From an uncultured Thermoleophilia bacterium (GTDB lineage: Bacteria; Actinomycetota; Thermoleophilia; UBA2241): a stretch of DNA of 36,660 nucleotides. The translations under genes and the position numbers were made by a program. Location: contig CAIOZS010000319.1 in assembly GCA_903862845.1 (NCBI GenBank), positions 1-36,660 of the forward strand. Reading direction: 5' to 3'. A model generated the notes under the pieces. The model had not been told where the DNA came from and searched no databases. It saw only the letters and a program-made list of their open reading frames with translations. This document shows positions 9,113 through 16,477 of this stretch, piece by piece (within the stretch, counting starts at the first letter, position 1; every line of letters starts with the position of its first letter).

Positions 9113-11998
9113 TCAGGCGTCGCCGGCGAGCCGCCGCAGGTAGTGCTCCACGACGGCGGGGATCTCCTCCGGCGCCGCTTCGACGACCTCGAGCTTCGGC
9201 AGACTGCCCACGAAGTCGCGGCGGTAGCTCTTCTGCGTGAGGCGATGGTCAAGCACGACAACGACGCCCGTGTCGGTCTCGGTGCGGATAAGGCGCCCGA
9301 AGCCCTGGCGGAACTTGAGCACGGCCTCCGGCAGGTAGAAGCTGTCGAACCAGCGCTCGCCGGCCTCTTCGCAGGCGCGCCGGCGGGCGTGGAACAGCGG
9401 ATCCTGCCGCGGGAACGGCAGCTTGGCGATGACGAGGCAGGTGAGCGTGTCGCCGGGGAAGTCCTGCCCGGTCCAGAGCGTGTCGACGCCGAGCAGGATC
9501 GTCGCGGGATGAGTGCGGAACTCATCGGCCAGAGCGGCCGCGCTGCCGTGCAGGCCCTGGGCCAGCACGAGGACGCCGTCGTCCTCGACGTGCGCCCCGA
9601 CCTCGGCGGCCACCAGGTTCATGTCCCTCTTGTTCGTGAACAGCGCCAGGGTGCGGCCGCCGGTGACCGCGGCGAGGCGCTTGAGGCGCTCGCCCTGGCG
9701 CTGCGCAAGCGCATCTGGACGCCAGGCGCCGCCGGGGTCGTGCTCGAGGATGAGAACCGCCTGGCGGCTGAAGTCGAACGGCGACGGGAAGATGCGCTCG
9801 ACCACGTCGACGTCGGCGTCCAGGCCGGTCATGTGGCGGAAGTACGCGAACGAACCGGTCACCGTGAGGGTAGCGCTGGTGAGAACGGCGCTGCGCAGGC
9901 GGTCCCACAGCGCCTCGCGAACCTGACGCGCAGGGGTGAGAGGCGTGCGCGTGAGCGTCCAGCGTGGGGGTCGCGCGGCGCCGTCGCCCGCGGAACCGCC
10001 GGCGCGCCCGGCGGCCTCGAGCTCACCCCAGACGACGGCCTCCGCGCCGCCGCTGTCGGGCAGCTCGCCGAGGAGGCCTGAGTATTTGGCGGCGTCCTCG
10101 GCGAGCGCCATCACGGCGGCGTGCTCGCGGTGCTCCTCGGGGAGCGCCTCGGCGGCCGGCGCGACGCCGGCGGCCAGCGCCGCAAGGCCCTCGGCGAGGA
10201 GGCCCGTGGCGAGCGCGAACGGGTCCCATGCGGGGAGCTCGCGAAGGCCCGGCGTGATCCACACGGTCTGGTTGTACTCCGTGCCCGCGGCGGTCCGCCG
10301 GCCGCCGCCGGGCTCGGCGTCCTCGTCGCGGGCCGCGACTCCGAGCCGGGCGAGCGTCTCGCCGACGGCTTTCACCAGGTCGGGCAGCAGCTCCGCGGCG
10401 CGCTCGCACGAATCCGCCGCTGCCACGAGGGTCCGTGCCTCGCCGGGCTCGGCGCGCCGCGCTGCCGTGCGCAGGCGCTGCGGAAGCGGCCGCAGCCGGC
10501 GCCGGCCGCGCAGATCGGCGAGCAGCAGATCGACGGCGAGTGCGTCGATCTCCTCGCTGAAGGCTTCGGTGGCCTCGTGATAGAGCAGATGCGCCTCGTC
10601 GATCACCACGTCCTCGAACGGAGGAAGCGTGTCTGGGCCCGTGAGCAGCAGAGCGTGGTTGACGCACACGAGGTGGGCTGCCTCGGCGCGGCTGCGCGCC
10701 AGCCGCCAGTGACAGCCGCGCCGGGAGGGACAGTGCCAACCCAGACAGGTGGCCCGTGAGGAACGCAGCTCGCGGGCCAGCTCGGCCAGCGCCGGCAGCT
10801 CGCGGGAGGCCCGGTACGGCAGCGCCGACAGGTCGACCTCACCGCGTCGCGCCCGGCCGACAAGGTAGGCGAGCGCCAGCGAGCGCTCGCGATCCGGCAA
10901 CGTCTCGCTCTCGGCGGCGACGGCCTCGTCGAGCCGCCGCCGGCAGACGTAGTTCTCGCGGCCCATGAGCAGCGCCCAGCGCCAGCCCGGCGGCAGTGCC
11001 TGCGCGACGAGGGGCAGTTCGTGCGCGGCAAGCTGGCGCTGCAGGGCCTTGGTCTTCGTGCTCACCACGATGCGGCGCCCGGCGGCGGCGGCGGCGAAGG
11101 CCGCCGGCAGAAGATACGCGAGGCTCTTGCCCATGCCGGTGCCGGCCTCGAAGAGGCCCACGCCGCCGCCGGCGAAGATGTCGGCGGCGGCGGCCGCGAG
11201 CTGCGACTGGCCGGGCCGCCGGCGAAACCCGGGAAGGCGGGCGGCCAGGCGCGGCTCACCTTGAGCGGCCTCGCCGGCCGCGTCGCCTTCTGCGCCGACC
11301 CCCAGCTCGGCGCACCAGCCGCCCGCGTCGACGGGCAGGACGGCGAGCGCCGCGCCGCGCGGCTCGTCGGCGACGACCGGCGGCGGCGCCTCGTCGGGCG
11401 TCGCCGCGAAACGGTCGAGCAGCTCGAGCGGCGCCCAGCGGACGGCCGTCAGCAGGCCGCGCTCCTCGGCGCCGAGGCCGGCAGCCCGGGCGCAGAGCCG
11501 CCGGAGCACGTCGGCCGTCGTCTCAGCATCGGGGAGGGCGCGGTGCGCCCGGCGCTCGATGCCGAAGGCGGCGGCCAGGATGGCCAAGGCGTGACGGTCG
11601 AGCTCGGGAAAGAGCAGAAGGGCCGCCTCGAGCGTGTCGAACCACGCGTTGGCGAGCGGCGGCAGGGCCGCCCTGCGGGCGCCGGCCGCCAGGTGATCGC
11701 GGTCGAAGCCGGCGTTGTGACCGACGAGCACCGCGTCGCCGGCGAAGTCGCGCAGTGCCGCGAGCGCCTGGGGGAAGGCGGGGGCGCCGCGCACCTCGGC
11801 GTCGCTGATGTCTGTCAGGCGCGTGATGGAGAGCGGGATCGGCACGCCGGGATCGACGAGCGTGACAAAACGCGCGCAGGTCTCGAGGTCTGGGCCCAGG
11901 CGCACGGCGCCGATCTCGATGAGGCGGTCGCGCTCCGCGTCCAGACCCGTGGTCTCGGTGTCGAGCACGACGAGCTGGGCTGGAGGGGCCGCGGGCAT
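9113..11998 (-). CDS. dinG: DinG-family DNA helicase with N-terminal DnaQ-like 3'-5' exonuclease
   Basis: 961 aa. Residues 1-170 carry the exonuclease motifs DTETTG (13-18), HNAGFDRDHL and HRALPDAETT. The superfamily 2 (XPD/DinG) helicase follows: Walker A GTGMGKS with Lys291, DEAH box with Asp467, and motif VI QGFGRLIR near the C-terminus. Several Cys (YVC, TCLGWHC, GC, LVC) between motifs I and II are candidate ligands of the family's iron-sulfur cluster. The exonuclease-helicase fusion is known from Gram-positive DinG proteins. It probably acts in repair or R-loop removal. The ATG is placed by the start of the exonuclease domain and by a -10 box exactly at leaderless distance. Confidence 0.93.
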   Translation of the reverse strand: MPAAPPAQLVVLDTETTGLDAERDRLIEIGAVRLGPDLETCARFVTLVDPGVPIPLSITRLTDISDAEVRGAPAFPQALAALRDFAGDAVLVGHNAGFDRDHLAAGARRAALPPLANAWFDTLEAALLLFPELDRHALAILAAAFGIERRAHRALPDAETTADVLRRLCARAAGLGAEERGLLTAVRWAPLELLDRFAATPDEAPPPVVADEPRGAALAVLPVDAGGWCAELGVGAEGDAAGEAAQGEPRLAARLPGFRRRPGQSQLAAAAADIFAGGGVGLFEAGTGMGKSLAYLLPAAFAAAAAGRRIVVSTKTKALQRQLAAHELPLVAQALPPGWRWALLMGRENYVCRRRLDEAVAAESETLPDRERSLALAYLVGRARRGEVDLSALPYRASRELPALAELARELRSSRATCLGWHCPSRRGCHWRLARSRAEAAHLVCVNHALLLTGPDTLPPFEDVVIDEAHLLYHEATEAFSEEIDALAVDLLLADLRGRRRLRPLPQRLRTAARRAEPGEARTLVAAADSCERAAELLPDLVKAVGETLARLGVAARDEDAEPGGGRRTAAGTEYNQTVWITPGLRELPAWDPFALATGLLAEGLAALAAGVAPAAEALPEEHREHAAVMALAEDAAKYSGLLGELPDSGGAEAVVWGELEAAGRAGGSAGDGAARPPRWTLTRTPLTPARQVREALWDRLRSAVLTSATLTVTGSFAYFRHMTGLDADVDVVERIFPSPFDFSRQAVLILEHDPGGAWRPDALAQRQGERLKRLAAVTGGRTLALFTNKRDMNLVAAEVGAHVEDDGVLVLAQGLHGSAAALADEFRTHPATILLGVDTLWTGQDFPGDTLTCLVIAKLPFPRQDPLFHARRRACEEAGERWFDSFYLPEAVLKFRQGFGRLIRTETDTGVVVVLDHRLTQKSYRRDFVGSLPKLEVVEAAPEEIPAVVEHYLRRLAGDA

Positions 11999-12074: not shown

Positions 12075-13157
12075 TCAGCCCGCCGGCAGACCGGCGAGCG
12101 CGCCGGCGGCCATGGCGGCGATCAGACCCAGAAGCTCGGCCTGACCTTCGCCGGCGGCGCGGCCCAACGTGAGGGTGAGCGCGAGCAGGTTCGCGTCGCA
12201 GGGCGCCGTCGAGACGATCACGTGGGCGGTGTCGGTCTGCGTAGTACCGCCCTTGCCGCTGCCGCTCGGCGAACCGGTAGCGCCGGCGGTGGCACCGTTG
12301 TAGCTGGCTACGCAGGACATCGCCGCGAGCGCCTGCGCGGCCAGGTCGGCCGCCGCCTGGAGCACGCCGCTCCGCGAAACCTGATTCTGCAGGGCGGCGT
12401 GCCCGGCGGCGATCTTCTGGATCGCGTGGCGCAGGGCGAGCACGTCCTGGTCGCTGCGCTTGAGCTGCGCGAACACCTTGGCGTTGTGCATGGCCACGGC
12501 GGCTTGTCCGGCGACCGCGTTGGCGAGGCGCATCTCCTGGCGGCTGAAGCGCCGCTCCCGCTGGTGGTCGAGCACCTCGAGCAGTCCGATGGCCTGGCCC
12601 TGGTGGATCATCGGCAGGATCAGCAGGCACTTGTCGCCGTCGCGGCGCATGATCGCGACCTCGGCCGCGTCCGCGCGAGGGTCGCTGACGTTGACGGTGG
12701 TGGTCTCGTGGTCCTCGATGGCCTTGCGGGCCATGGGGAACTGGCTCAGCGTGTAGGTCATGGTGTCGACCTGACGGTTGCCCAGATTGTCGTATTCCGC
12801 CTGCACGGCGACAGTGCGGGTCGCCGGGTCGTACTCGGAGATCACGCACACGTGGGCGTCGAGCAGGGTGGTCATCTGTTTGGCGACCTCGCGGAGGAGC
12901 TCGGCGACCTCGAGACGGCTGGAGACGACGATGGCGGTCTCTACCAGCGTCTCGAGCTCGCGTTCGCGGGCGAGGCGGGCGGCGAGATGGTTGCTCCCGC
13001 CGATGAGATGGGTGAGCTCGTCGATGTCTTCTTGCCTGATGCGCCGGTGCCCGCCGGCGGTGCGCGTGCAGGGCAGGAAACCGGAGGCCGTCCAGCGGCG
13101 GATCGTGTGCGGCGACACGCCCAGGCGGCGGGCGGCCAACTGTACGCTGTAGTACAT
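12075..13157 (-). CDS. MerR-type HTH / GAF-domain transcriptional regulator, paralog 1
   Basis: 360 aa. The N-terminal 50 residues are a MerR-superfamily helix-turn-helix (SVQLAARRLGVSPHTIRRW, then TRTAGGHRRI). A helical linker leads into a GAF sensor domain at about residues 70-245, and a C-terminal Ala-rich domain of about 95 residues (containing SCVASYNG) looks like a second, degenerate GAF. The ligand is unknown. Its closest visible relative is the gene at 13997-15091, with the same domain order and the same promoter design. It is transcribed away from the cytosine deaminase gene, which may be a target. The ATG at 13157 was chosen because the -10 box places the transcript start exactly on it. 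Confidence 0.85.
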   Translation of the reverse strand: MYYSVQLAARRLGVSPHTIRRWTASGFLPCTRTAGGHRRIRQEDIDELTHLIGGSNHLAARLARERELETLVETAIVVSSRLEVAELLREVAKQMTTLLDAHVCVISEYDPATRTVAVQAEYDNLGNRQVDTMTYTLSQFPMARKAIEDHETTTVNVSDPRADAAEVAIMRRDGDKCLLILPMIHQGQAIGLLEVLDHQRERRFSRQEMRLANAVAGQAAVAMHNAKVFAQLKRSDQDVLALRHAIQKIAAGHAALQNQVSRSGVLQAAADLAAQALAAMSCVASYNGATAGATGSPSGSGKGGTTQTDTAHVIVSTAPCDANLLALTLTLGRAAGEGQAELLGLIAAMAAGALAGLPAG

Positions 13158-13163
13158 GCGCAA

Positions 13164-13212
13164 ACCGTAGCGGGGAACTTACCCATCGTCAACAGACGGC
13201 GAAGTTCTCCGC
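13164..13212 (-). promoter_or_regulatory. Leaderless promoter and inverted-repeat operator of MerR-GAF paralog 1
   Basis: On the minus strand TTGACG (13192-13187), a 17-base spacer and TACGGT (13169-13164) are followed by 6 bases and the ATG, so the message should be leaderless. An inverted repeat, GCGGGGAACTT (13170-13180) with AAGTTCTCCGC (13202-13212), one mismatch, flanks the -35 box; its inner arm lies in the spacer. The paralog has the same arrangement, which points to autoregulation. Confidence 0.72.
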
Positions 13213-13480
13213 GCCCTGGTTGTCAAGATCTCCCGCTCGTCGCAGCGAAGGGAAGCCCAGCAAATGGGCGGTATTTGGCAGCCGGAGGTTGACGTCGTCG
13301 CGTGAGTTTCAGGGCACGCTTGCGGCGCGCGCTTTGCGCTCTCCCGGCACCTTCGCGCTCACTATCGCGGGCGCGCGCGGCCGGCGCGGCATCGCGCTCG
13401 TACCTGGGGTCGCGGCGTGCGCTATCCTGACGCCAATCTCGCGCCGCAGGCCGTGCTTGACCGTCGATTGGAGAAACCCG
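13213..13480 (+). promoter_or_regulatory. Upstream region of the cytosine deaminase gene
   Basis: No gene is seen in this stretch. TATCCT at 13423-13428 is a plausible plus-strand -10 box, giving a leader of about 46 bases with a GGAGAAA ribosome-binding site just before the ATG at 13481. No good -35 box lies 16-18 bases upstream of it. Open frames here are not supported by start sites or by recognisable protein. Confidence 0.35.
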
Positions 13481-13936
13481 ATGGCTCTCACTGATGCCGA
13501 ACAGCTCGCCTATGCCGTCGCCGCGGCCAAGGTCGGTCGTGCCGAAGGGGGGATCCCCATTGGCGCGGCGCTCATTGTCGACGGCGAGGTGCTCGCCGTC
13601 GGGCACAACCTGAGGGTGCAGCGCGGAAGCGCCATCCATCACGGTGAGACCAACTGTCTCGAGAACGCGGGCCGCCTGCCGGCGAGCGTCTACGCACGCG
13701 CGACGATGGTCACGACGCTGTCGCCGTGCGACATGTGCACGGGCGCGATCCTGCTGTACAGGATCCCGCGCGTGATCATCGGCGAGAACACCACGTTCTA
13801 CGGGGGAGAGGACTACCTGCGCTCGCGCGGAGTCGAGGTCGTCGTGCTCGATGATGCCGAGTGCGTCCAGATGATGCGCGATTTCATCGCCGCAGAGCCG
13901 AGCCTGTGGAACGAGGACATCGGCGAGGAAGGCTGA
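13481..13936 (+). CDS. Cytosine deaminase, yeast FCY1-like
   Basis: 151 aa zinc-dependent deaminase. The catalytic set is His54-x-Glu56 in HGETN and Cys83/Cys86 in SPCDMCTGAI. Beyond these general CDA-fold motifs, several stretches match Saccharomyces cytosine deaminase Fcy1 as I remember it: GIPIG, GHN with a likely substrate-binding Asn43, LSPCDMCTGAI, IPR, GEN, and the C-terminal W-x-EDIGE that closes over the active site in the yeast enzyme. Predicted reaction: cytosine to uracil. Length agrees with Fcy1 (158 aa). It stands alone between the two MerR-GAF regulators. Related family members can act on other nucleobases or on creatinine-like rings, so the substrate is probable rather than certain. 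Confidence 0.85.
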   Translation: MALTDAEQLAYAVAAAKVGRAEGGIPIGAALIVDGEVLAVGHNLRVQRGSAIHHGETNCLENAGRLPASVYARATMVTTLSPCDMCTGAILLYRIPRVIIGENTTFYGGEDYLRSRGVEVVVLDDAECVQMMRDFIAAEPSLWNEDIGEEG

Positions 13937-13996
13937 GGCGCCGCTCCGCCGGAGCCGCCGCGCGCAGGCCGGTTTCGGCAGATCGTCGCGCAGACC

Positions 13997-15091
13997 TCAG
14001 GCGGCGGACCCTTCGGGAACCGCCACGGCGGCGGTGGCCGCGGCGATGAGGTCGAGCAACTCCACCTGGCCCTCGCCGGGCGGCTCGCCGAGCGTGACGG
14101 CGAGCGTGAGGTCGGTGCGCCCCGACGGGTCGCGCGACACGACCAGACTGGCGCTGGCGCCGCGCTCGGCGTTGGTGGCGTCGGGGCGGGCGGCGAGTAG
14201 GCCGGCGCCGAAGGCGCCGGCGCTCTCGCCGCCCACGCTGGCCACGCACGAGATCGCGCCGAAGGCTTCGCAGACGGCGCCGGCTACGGCGGCAAGGAGG
14301 CCCGAGCCGCGCCCGGCGGCGCTCACCGCCGGCAGGCGCGCCGTGAGATCGGCGATCATCTCACGCAGGCTGGCCACGTCCTCGTCGCTGCGCCGCCGTG
14401 CGGCGAACAGCTTGGCGTTGTGAATGGCCACCGCCGCCTGCCCGGCGATGGCGCCGGCCAGGCGGCGCTCCTGACGCGAGTACTGGCGGGACCGCTTCTG
14501 ATCGACGACCTCGAGGATGCCGATGGTGCGGCCCTGCACGATGAGCGGAACCATGAGGAGGCTGCGGTCGCCCTCGCGGCGCAGCTCGGCGACCTCGGCG
14601 GGGTCGGCGTCGGGGTCTTCAACGTTGACGACCGCCGCCGTCTGCTCTTGCAGCACGCTGCGCGTCAGGGGGAAATCCCTGAGCTTGTAGGGGCTCGCGT
14701 CGGGCAGGCGCCGCCCGGCGTGGTCGTACTCGGCCAGCGTGACGAGCTCCTGGGCCTCGGCGTCGTACTCTGAGATGGCGCAGAAATGGCAGTCGAGCAG
14801 GCTGGTCATGCGCATCGCGATCTCGAGCAGGAGCTCGGTGAGGTCGATCTTGCCGGCGAGCGCGATGGAGGTGTTGATGAGCACGTCGACCTCGCGCTCC
14901 CGGGCGAGCTGGGCGGCGAGATGGTTGCTGTTGCCGATGGCCTTGGCGAGGTCGTCGATGTCGTGCTCGTCGATGCGCCGGTGGCCACCGGCGGTGCGCG
15001 TGCAGGGAAGGAAGCCGGTCGCGGTCCAGCGCCGGATCGTGACCGCCGACACACCGAGCCGCCGCGCGGCCTGCTGAACGCTCAGAAGCAT
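13997..15091 (-). CDS. MerR-type HTH / GAF-domain transcriptional regulator, paralog 2
   Basis: 364 aa with the same three-part layout as the regulator at 12075-13157: helix-turn-helix (SVQQAARRLGVSAVTIRRW, then TRTAGGHRRI), GAF domain at about residues 70-245, and a conserved C-terminal domain with SCVASVGG and a GEGQVELLDLI motif near the end. The recognition helices of the two differ by few residues, so they may share binding sites. It is convergent with the cytosine deaminase gene and divergent from the saccharopine-dehydrogenase-family gene at 15290, which makes it a candidate regulator of that enzyme and the transporters beyond. The ligand of the GAF domain is unknown. Confidence 0.85.
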   Translation of the reverse strand: MLLSVQQAARRLGVSAVTIRRWTATGFLPCTRTAGGHRRIDEHDIDDLAKAIGNSNHLAAQLAREREVDVLINTSIALAGKIDLTELLLEIAMRMTSLLDCHFCAISEYDAEAQELVTLAEYDHAGRRLPDASPYKLRDFPLTRSVLQEQTAAVVNVEDPDADPAEVAELRREGDRSLLMVPLIVQGRTIGILEVVDQKRSRQYSRQERRLAGAIAGQAAVAIHNAKLFAARRRSDEDVASLREMIADLTARLPAVSAAGRGSGLLAAVAGAVCEAFGAISCVASVGGESAGAFGAGLLAARPDATNAERGASASLVVSRDPSGRTDLTLAVTLGEPPGEGQVELLDLIAAATAAVAVPEGSAA

Positions 15092-15097
15092 GGGCAG

Positions 15098-15148
15098 AAC
15101 CTAGCGGCGTCGCGGCGGGAAGTCAACAAAGGATAAGTTCCCGCCGCG
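15098..15148 (-). promoter_or_regulatory. Leaderless promoter and inverted-repeat operator of MerR-GAF paralog 2
   Basis: On the minus strand TTGACT (15126-15121), 17 bases and TAGGTT (15103-15098) are followed by 6 bases and the ATG, as in paralog 1. A perfect 11-bp inverted repeat (15111-15121 with 15138-15148; arm CGCGGCGGGAA) spans the -35 box with a 16-base spacer. The element GTCAACA is shared with paralog 1. The site also lies in the upstream region of the divergent gene at 15290. Confidence 0.75.
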
Positions 15149-15289
15149 GCAAGGAGCAACTTTCGACAGCACTATGCCCTGTAAAGCGGGCTGATTCTCT
15201 GGGATACTTGATGAGATCGAACAGCCGGTGGGGTGGGACTTTCGTTCTGGAGGCCCGGGGACCGGGAGCACGGGCAGAAGGGTGGGAGC

Positions 15290-16477
15290 ATGCGGGTCCT
15301 TCAACTTGGCGTTGGTGCCGTGGGCGAGGTGAACGCGCGGGTCAGCGCCCTGGAGCCGGCGGTCGAGACGGTCGTCCTCGCGGACATCGACGAGAGCCGA
15401 CTGCGCGAGGTGGCCGCGAAGCTGCCGCCGGGCAAGGCCGAGAGCCTTGTGCTGGACGCCTCCGACCACGCGGCCCTCGTGAGGGCCGCGAAGGGCGTCG
15501 ACTTCGTGCTCAACGCCTTGGCCACGGCCTGGGACATCCCGGTGATGGAGGCCTGCCTCGAGGCTGGGCGGCATTATCTCGACATGGGCACCGGCGGGCC
15601 CCGCGAGATCACGGGCACCGCCGACCTCGACGAGCAGCTCGCCCTCGACGACGAGTTCAAGAAGCGCGGCTTGGCCGGCCTCGTGTCGTTCGGCATCGAC
15701 CCGGGCGTCAGCGACATGTTCGCGCGCGCTTTGCACGACGAGCTCGACACCGTTGAGTCGCTCACGGTGCTGGACGGTGACAACGCCACCGTGGACGGCT
15801 ACGAGCTGGCCTGCTCGTTCAACGTGGAGACGATGATCGAGGAGTGCCTGCTGCCGCCGTACGTCTTCAAGGACGGCAGGGAGGTGCGCAACGAGGCCCT
15901 GTCGGTCTTCAGGGAGTTCGAGTTCCCGGCGCCGGTCGGCAAGCTCACGCTGTGCAACGTCGACCACGAAGAGGCACAGCTCATGCCGATGTACCTCAAG
16001 GGAAAGGGGCTCAGGAACGCGATCTTCTTCATCGGCCTCGACGAGCGCTTCGCCCAGGCACTCAAGGTCTTCAGGACGCTGGGCCTCAACCAGCGTGAGC
16101 CTGTGGAGTTCCGCGGGGCCATGATCTCGCCAATCCAGTTCGTGGCCTCACGTTTTCCCCGACCGGCCGACCTCGCCGGCAAGCTTCACGGTGCCGTCTG
16201 CGTGGGCACGCTCTGCGAAGGCACCATCGGCGGCGAGCCCGTGCGCCGCTTCCGCTATCAGACCACCTCGCACGACGAATCGTGGCAGAGGTGGGGAGTG
16301 CAGGGCACGGCCTTCCAGACCGGCGCCTCCGCGGCCTGTGCCGTCACCCAGTTCGCGCGCGGCGAGATCGCGCGGCGCGGGGTGTTCCCGGCTGAGGTGC
16401 TCGACCCCGCGGCCTACATGGCCGAGATGGAAAAGGTGGGCCTCGCGGTCGGGGTCGTGGACCTGCCGCCTGCCTGA
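15290..16477 (+). CDS. Saccharopine dehydrogenase family oxidoreductase (1)
   Basis: 395 aa, with a GGTGGGAG ribosome-binding site. The N-terminal Rossmann fold shows G7-x-G9-x-x-G12 and an acidic end of strand 2 (LADID), which suggests NAD(H). The middle and C-terminal parts fit the saccharopine dehydrogenase/lysine 6-dehydrogenase group (GIDPGVSDMFA, then RGAMISP). The substrate is probably an amino acid or its imine. A paralog lies at 26267. The promoter may be TGTAAA-17-GATACT (15180-15208). It is followed by a strong hairpin, then two MFS genes on the same strand; function in one pathway with them is suggested by position only. Confidence 0.82.
   Translation: MRVLQLGVGAVGEVNARVSALEPAVETVVLADIDESRLREVAAKLPPGKAESLVLDASDHAALVRAAKGVDFVLNALATAWDIPVMEACLEAGRHYLDMGTGGPREITGTADLDEQLALDDEFKKRGLAGLVSFGIDPGVSDMFARALHDELDTVESLTVLDGDNATVDGYELACSFNVETMIEECLLPPYVFKDGREVRNEALSVFREFEFPAPVGKLTLCNVDHEEAQLMPMYLKGKGLRNAIFFIGLDERFAQALKVFRTLGLNQREPVEFRGAMISPIQFVASRFPRPADLAGKLHGAVCVGTLCEGTIGGEPVRRFRYQTTSHDESWQRWGVQGTAFQTGASAACAVTQFARGEIARRGVFPAEVLDPAAYMAEMEKVGLAVGVVDLPPA

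Follow-up and report, generated by a model that had tools for sequence, protein, structure and literature searches.

A conserved direct repeat upstream of paralogous MerR-GAF genes suggests self-directed regulation in an uncultured Thermoleophilia family

Two genes for MerR-GAF regulators, here called A and B, are encoded within the window that we analyzed, a 36,660-nt stretch of DNA that corresponds to contig C319 in a draft genome of 4.38 Mb from an uncultured Thermoleophilia bacterium. The conserved element upstream of these genes is a direct repeat of the box RAASTT at -71 and -48 from the start codon (ATG = +1), with the two copies 23 bp apart and located directly upstream of the -35 hexamer. 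The interpretation that we favor, with moderate confidence, is that each MerR-GAF protein would autoregulate its own leaderless promoter through these direct repeats, so that the paralogs would be mainly self-controlling. The coordinates of all features are given in Table 1.

Table 1. Positions of genes, promoter elements, and repeats in the window
Feature	Position	Strand	Remark
Gene A, wHTH (MerR/HTH_17) + GAF regulator	12075..13157	minus	360 aa
Gene B, wHTH + GAF regulator	13997..15091	minus	364 aa
Gene A promoter, TTGACG-17-TACGGT-6-ATG	13192..13155	minus	
Gene A -35 hexamer, TTGACG	13187..13192	minus	
Gene A -10 hexamer, TACGGT	13164..13169	minus	6 bases ahead of ATG
Gene B promoter, TTGACT-17-TAGGTT-6-ATG	15126..15089	minus	
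Gene B -35 hexamer, TTGACT	15121..15126	minus	
Gene B -10 hexamer, TAGGTT	15098..15103	minus	6 bases ahead of ATG
Gene A proximal box, AACTT(CGCC), at -49	13202..13206	minus	conserved in orthologs
Gene A distal box, degenerate (ATCTT), at -72	13225..13229	minus	AACTT or AAGTT in orthologs
Gene A extra box in spacer, AAGTT (AACTT inverted), at -23	13176..13180	minus	
Gene B proximal box, AACTT(ATCC), at -48	15135..15139	minus	
Gene B distal box, AAGTT(GCTC), at -71	15158..15162	minus	23 bp upstream of proximal box
Third phased element upstream of B, TTTACAG	15179..15185	minus	another 23-bp step; kept in most B orthologs
11-bp perfect inverted repeat, CGCGGCGGGAA / TTCCCGCCGCG	15111..15148 (arms 15111-15121 and 15138-15148)		this genome only
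CTGNAA-18-GANANT-like arrangement	15160-15215	plus	
DinG-like helicase gene	9113-11998	minus	downstream of gene A
CMP/TadA-like deaminase gene	13481-13936	plus	between A and B
Saccharopine-dehydrogenase-like gene	15233-16477	plus	divergent from B

Both proteins belong to the MerR-type (PF13411/PF00376) and GAF sensor proteins. For A and B, respectively, the scores are 38.3 and 34.5 bits for MerR_1 (cut-off 21.6), 39.2 and 38.0 bits for MerR (cut-off 28.2), and 52.7 and 58.6 bits for GAF_2 (cut-off 28.6). Scores for the BldC family NF033787 (39.4 and 38.5 bits) lie below its cut-off of 77, and the domain search returned GAF only, with no C-terminal cobalamin-binding domain in either protein. 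An AlphaFold2 model of the gene B product (mean pLDDT 85.6, pTM 0.62) comprises a winged helix–turn–helix (wHTH), a coil, a GAF domain, a long helix, and a second small GAF-like domain (residues 263-357), and the proteins are described here as a wHTH joined to predicted tandem GAF domains. With modest TM-scores, Foldseek matches this model to GAF-PHY and tandem-GAF proteins, general GAF/phytochrome folds that give no clue to a ligand. The two proteins are 76% identical over residues 1-50, 51% identical over the GAF domain, and 38% identical over the C-terminal third.

Residues 2-49 align to the BldC structures 6ama and 6amk, and the wHTH also aligns to CarH-type proteins. BldC reads the sequence AATTXXXX(C) by inserting His46, Arg47, and Arg48 into the minor groove and placing Arg30 on a guanine, with Lys26 as a flexible DNA contact (PMC5859096). 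The equivalents of Arg30, His46, Arg47, and Arg48 in the MerR-GAF proteins are Arg21, His37, Arg38, and Arg39, and these are invariant in 28 homologs. The Lys26 position corresponds to residue 17 of the recognition helix, which is occupied by His in A and by Val in B.

Among the genomes sampled, searches with protein B found these regulators in one family only. At E <= 1e-20, matches were found in all 14 of the other sampled species of the family and in none of 45 genomes from seven other families of the class. At E <= 1e-30, 14 of 299 class-wide genomes match, every one of them in this family, and across 397 phylum-wide genomes this genome alone matches, so no homolog beyond the family was found at this threshold in either sample. 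There are, at weaker scores, larger proteins that contain MerR and GAF domains. Public contigs yielded only two additional orthologs, apparently from genomes already in the sample, and literature searches turned up no paper on this MerR-GAF class.

In most relatives, B and A are arranged in tandem and are flanked by a divergent MFS transporter gene and a gene for a DinG-like helicase that carries an exonuclease (RNase_T) domain at its N-terminus, the latter gene being a conserved neighbor downstream of A. A saccharopine-dehydrogenase-like (carboxynorspermidine-synthase-like) gene on the MFS side is present or absent depending on the relative. It was undetected in G005, G002, G011, and G008 and is partial in G009, with the adjoining MFS gene retained. 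The deaminase gene is found between A and B in this genome only; the A-B interval of the relatives examined measures roughly 50 to 250 bp and contains no deaminase.

The promoter core that the sequence-only reading had described, TTGAC-17-TANNNT-6-ATG ahead of both MerR-GAF genes, is real. It recurs in most relatives across the family, and nearly all MerR-GAF promoters compared have a 17-bp spacer. The accompanying claim that these promoters have been preserved is likewise supported. Alignment columns in boxes and hexamers have a mean pairwise identity of 0.64, versus 0.33 elsewhere. The TANNNT-6-ATG geometry fits a transcription start at the ATG, and both genes are probably leaderless. This core by itself is ordinary in these genomes, as 15 family genomes contain 199 matches to the pattern TTGAC-17/19-TANNNT-3/12-ATG versus 16 for a reversed control. 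Leaderless TANNNT promoters of Actinobacteria, which are common in Mycobacterium, likewise have TANNNT placed for a start at the ATG (PMC3898074); what sets the MerR-GAF genes apart from them is solely the box pair upstream of -35. In two outlying genes, a Shine-Dalgarno-like sequence replaces the leaderless -10, yet the boxes and their 23-bp spacing are kept.

The boxes were examined by comparing the upstream regions of 27 homologs in gene orientation. They are fixed in position in 19 promoters from five genera, are 23 bp apart in 15 of these, and lie 8-9 bp upstream of TTGAC; the sequences, from 15 genomes, are related, and these counts are therefore not independent. In 26 upstream regions, AASTT occurs 42 times versus 5.6 ± 2.3 expected (300 shuffles), with positions clustering at -70/-72 and -48/-49, and 13 promoters carry an AASTT pair 22-24 bp apart versus 0.03 expected (maximum of 1 in 300 shuffles), although the positions were spotted by eye before they were tested and the motif definition was fitted to the same data. 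In 37 of 38 boxes the base ahead of the core is a purine, but the base behind it is a pyrimidine in only half, which indicates that the repeat is direct despite its near-palindromic core. No conserved middle copy was seen between the two boxes in the promoters compared, and no boxes are present upstream of the homologs G007:C170 and G008:C174. An earlier loose-gap pattern, AACTT-AACTT-TTGA, matched mostly coding repeats and chance occurrences and was replaced by the fixed-spacing AASTT pattern.

Some promoters have further features. In B promoters, a TTNCAG element lies another 23-bp step upstream of the distal box. It is overlapped on the plus strand by a CTGNAA-18-GANANT-like arrangement that, judged by eye, is apparently kept upstream of B in several relatives and may be a promoter for the divergent dehydrogenase/MFS genes. 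Upstream of one MerR-GAF homolog that has Ala at position 17 of the recognition helix (L038, G007:C87), two copies of AACCTGCCG are located 33 bp apart and could represent a variant operator.

Genome-wide searches provide a more independent test than the counts of the fitted motif. With up to two mismatches, the full promoter architecture has 16 matches (12 + 4) in the 15 genomes, and all are at MerR-GAF genes; at three mismatches, chance matches appear. Exact RAASTT-N17-RAASTT pairs occur at 12 distinct places in the same genomes, 11 of which are MerR-GAF promoters, versus 6 for the reversed control. Given this control, the lone pair away from MerR-GAF genes (G010:C60) was taken as a chance match. 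Across the window, box pairs are found only at the A and B promoters, and the other MerR genes of this genome have at most a single upstream AAGTT and no pairs. This near-confinement to MerR-GAF promoters favors a self-directed system over a global regulon. The proposal that the deaminase, the dehydrogenase, and the MFS pair are possible further targets is not supported for sites of their own, because none of these genes has a box pair; the deaminase is additionally disfavored by its absence from the A-B interval of the relatives examined. The divergent dehydrogenase and MFS genes could possibly still be passive targets, since they share the intergenic region with B.

The boxes of A and B share their core and differ in the bases 3' of it, at positions +5 to +8. 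A CGC flank is present in 10 of 15 A-clade boxes versus 0 of 20 boxes of Val17 genes, and an NNTC flank is present in 11 of 20 Val17 boxes versus 0 of 15 A-clade boxes. Position-wise Fisher tests that ignore kinship give p = 0.00097 (+5), 0.0016 (+6), and 0.00013 (+7). The tree gives good support to the A clade; the flank difference between A and B may have arisen in a single event. A second clade with His17, which lies outside the A clade (G003 and G009:C53), lacks the CGC flank. Residue 17 is thus ruled out as the sole determinant of the flank and is at most part of the code. These paralog-specific flanks argue against full cross-regulation.

A different arrangement had been emphasized by the sequence-only reading, in which both proteins would act on their own and on each other's gene through an inverted repeat over the -35 region that serves as a common operator. 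The repeat does exist in both promoters, and the gaps between GGGAA and TTCYC are 27 bp (A) and 16 bp (B), differing by 11 as claimed. For gene B, the longest perfect arm across -35 is 11 bp, a length reached in 0 of 500 dinucleotide shuffles, and this operator would also be consistent with the identity of the core box and of most DNA-contact residues in A and B. However, the repeat is absent from every B ortholog, and the longest arm for gene A is 6 bp, which is within chance (P = 0.10, 500 shuffles). In the other 17 promoters, no inverted repeat across -35 goes beyond shuffles (P >= 0.06), so the gene B repeat is private to this genome. The upstream half-site AAGTTC(C/T)C of that reading is the -48 box read on the opposite strand. 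The sequence GTCAACA is indeed present in both promoters, although it is mostly the -35 hexamer on the opposite strand. The argument from helical phasing is not supported; the conserved element is a direct repeat at a constant 23-bp spacing. Only the A promoters of four same-genus genomes (G000, G001, G004, and G006) retain an inverted AAGTT box at -23, which lends limited support to that half of the picture. The ortholog comparison and the shuffles rule out the inverted repeat as a conserved operator, and given also the differing A and B flanks, we regard joint control of both genes through such a site as quite unlikely.

The direct repeat itself could be explained in other ways. Because the identity of the box-binding protein is something that we infer, a third, unlinked regulator might bind the RAASTT pair and control all MerR-GAF genes. 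Such a factor would have to be dedicated to a box pair that is essentially restricted to MerR-GAF genes in 15 genomes and whose flank also diverges by clade, which is less simple, and we consider it unlikely. The location of the boxes just upstream of -35 would also suit UP-element-like or DNA-bending features of A/T-rich sequence contacted by RNA polymerase. This explanation is improbable, since the boxes are missing from nearly all other TTGAC...TANNNT...ATG promoters of the same genomes and bear a clade-specific, GC-rich flank. Finally, all of the genes are paralogs or orthologs, and the promoter similarity could reflect common descent of duplicated genes with no selection on the boxes; this is hardly credible when the excess of identity inside the elements persists across genera and between paralogs that are only ~50% identical.

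The favored explanation, autoregulation through the direct repeats, can be set out as a model. Each MerR-GAF gene would have its own leaderless, primary-sigma-type promoter, and its product would bind there at the two RAASTT boxes. Contacts of the wHTH with each box would resemble those of BldC with its site: His37, Arg38, and Arg39 of the wing would enter the narrow A/T core, and the bases on its 3' side would be read by Arg21 and residue 17. Two subunits, joined via their coils and GAF domains, would fill the pair of boxes, with occupancy adjusted by the GAF domains in response to a putative ligand. After duplication of A and B, the core would have been retained and the flank changed (CGC for A, NNTC for B), such that each protein would come to control mainly its own gene. 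The position of the boxes just upstream of -35 suggests autoactivation. Autorepression is possible as well, and more readily for gene A in this genus, where the extra inverted box lies inside the promoter. Of the auto- and cross-regulation proposed from the sequence alone, we likewise infer the former; free cross-regulation is doubtful because the flanks differ consistently and residue 17 is His in one protein and Val in the other, although some cross-regulation through the common core, reduced by the flanks, is possible.

Classical MerR regulators have in common with A and B the N-terminal MerR-type winged helix. They activate transcription from palindromes within a spacer of 19-20 bp, whereas the promoters described here have a 17-bp spacer, no conserved palindrome across the core, and direct repeats upstream of -35. 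Binding of direct repeats by MerR-type proteins is already known from BldC and CarH. BldC of Streptomyces (PMC5859096) has a related wHTH and binds direct repeats head to tail, and its site resembles AASTT-NNN-C on one strand. In contrast to A and B, it has 68 residues and no sensor domain, and its sites are contiguous 9-bp repeats rather than boxes 23 bp apart. CarH and CarA (PMC9304148; 5c8d) combine a wHTH with a sensor domain, use direct-repeat operators at or near -35, and are encoded by tandem paralogs (carA-carH), as are A and B. CarH represses carotenoid genes from tandem 11-bp repeats of nnnnTnnACAn (PMC9304148) and has a cobalamin-binding photoreceptor domain, where A and B have GAF domains instead. 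A and B thus fall under neither the full BldC nor the full CarH family definition, and the literature searched describes no 23-bp period lacking a visible middle site for BldC or CarH.

If the proposed model is true, the direct repeat with 23-bp spacing would add a new geometry to the operators known for MerR-type proteins. More broadly, and more tentatively, the data may describe a multi-copy class of wHTH-tandem-GAF regulators, restricted to this family and duplicated along with their operators, in which private 23-bp direct repeats would form insulated autoregulatory loops and protein and operator would have changed together in the A clade; we hold this fuller picture as somewhat short of probable. 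The lineage-specific set of MerR-GAF paralogs has a recognizable operator that is near-confined to its own genes and is clade-specific beside the core. The boxes predict binding sites for proteins that are otherwise known from sequence alone, and the set is a compact natural case in which to test how regulators and their operators part ways after duplication.
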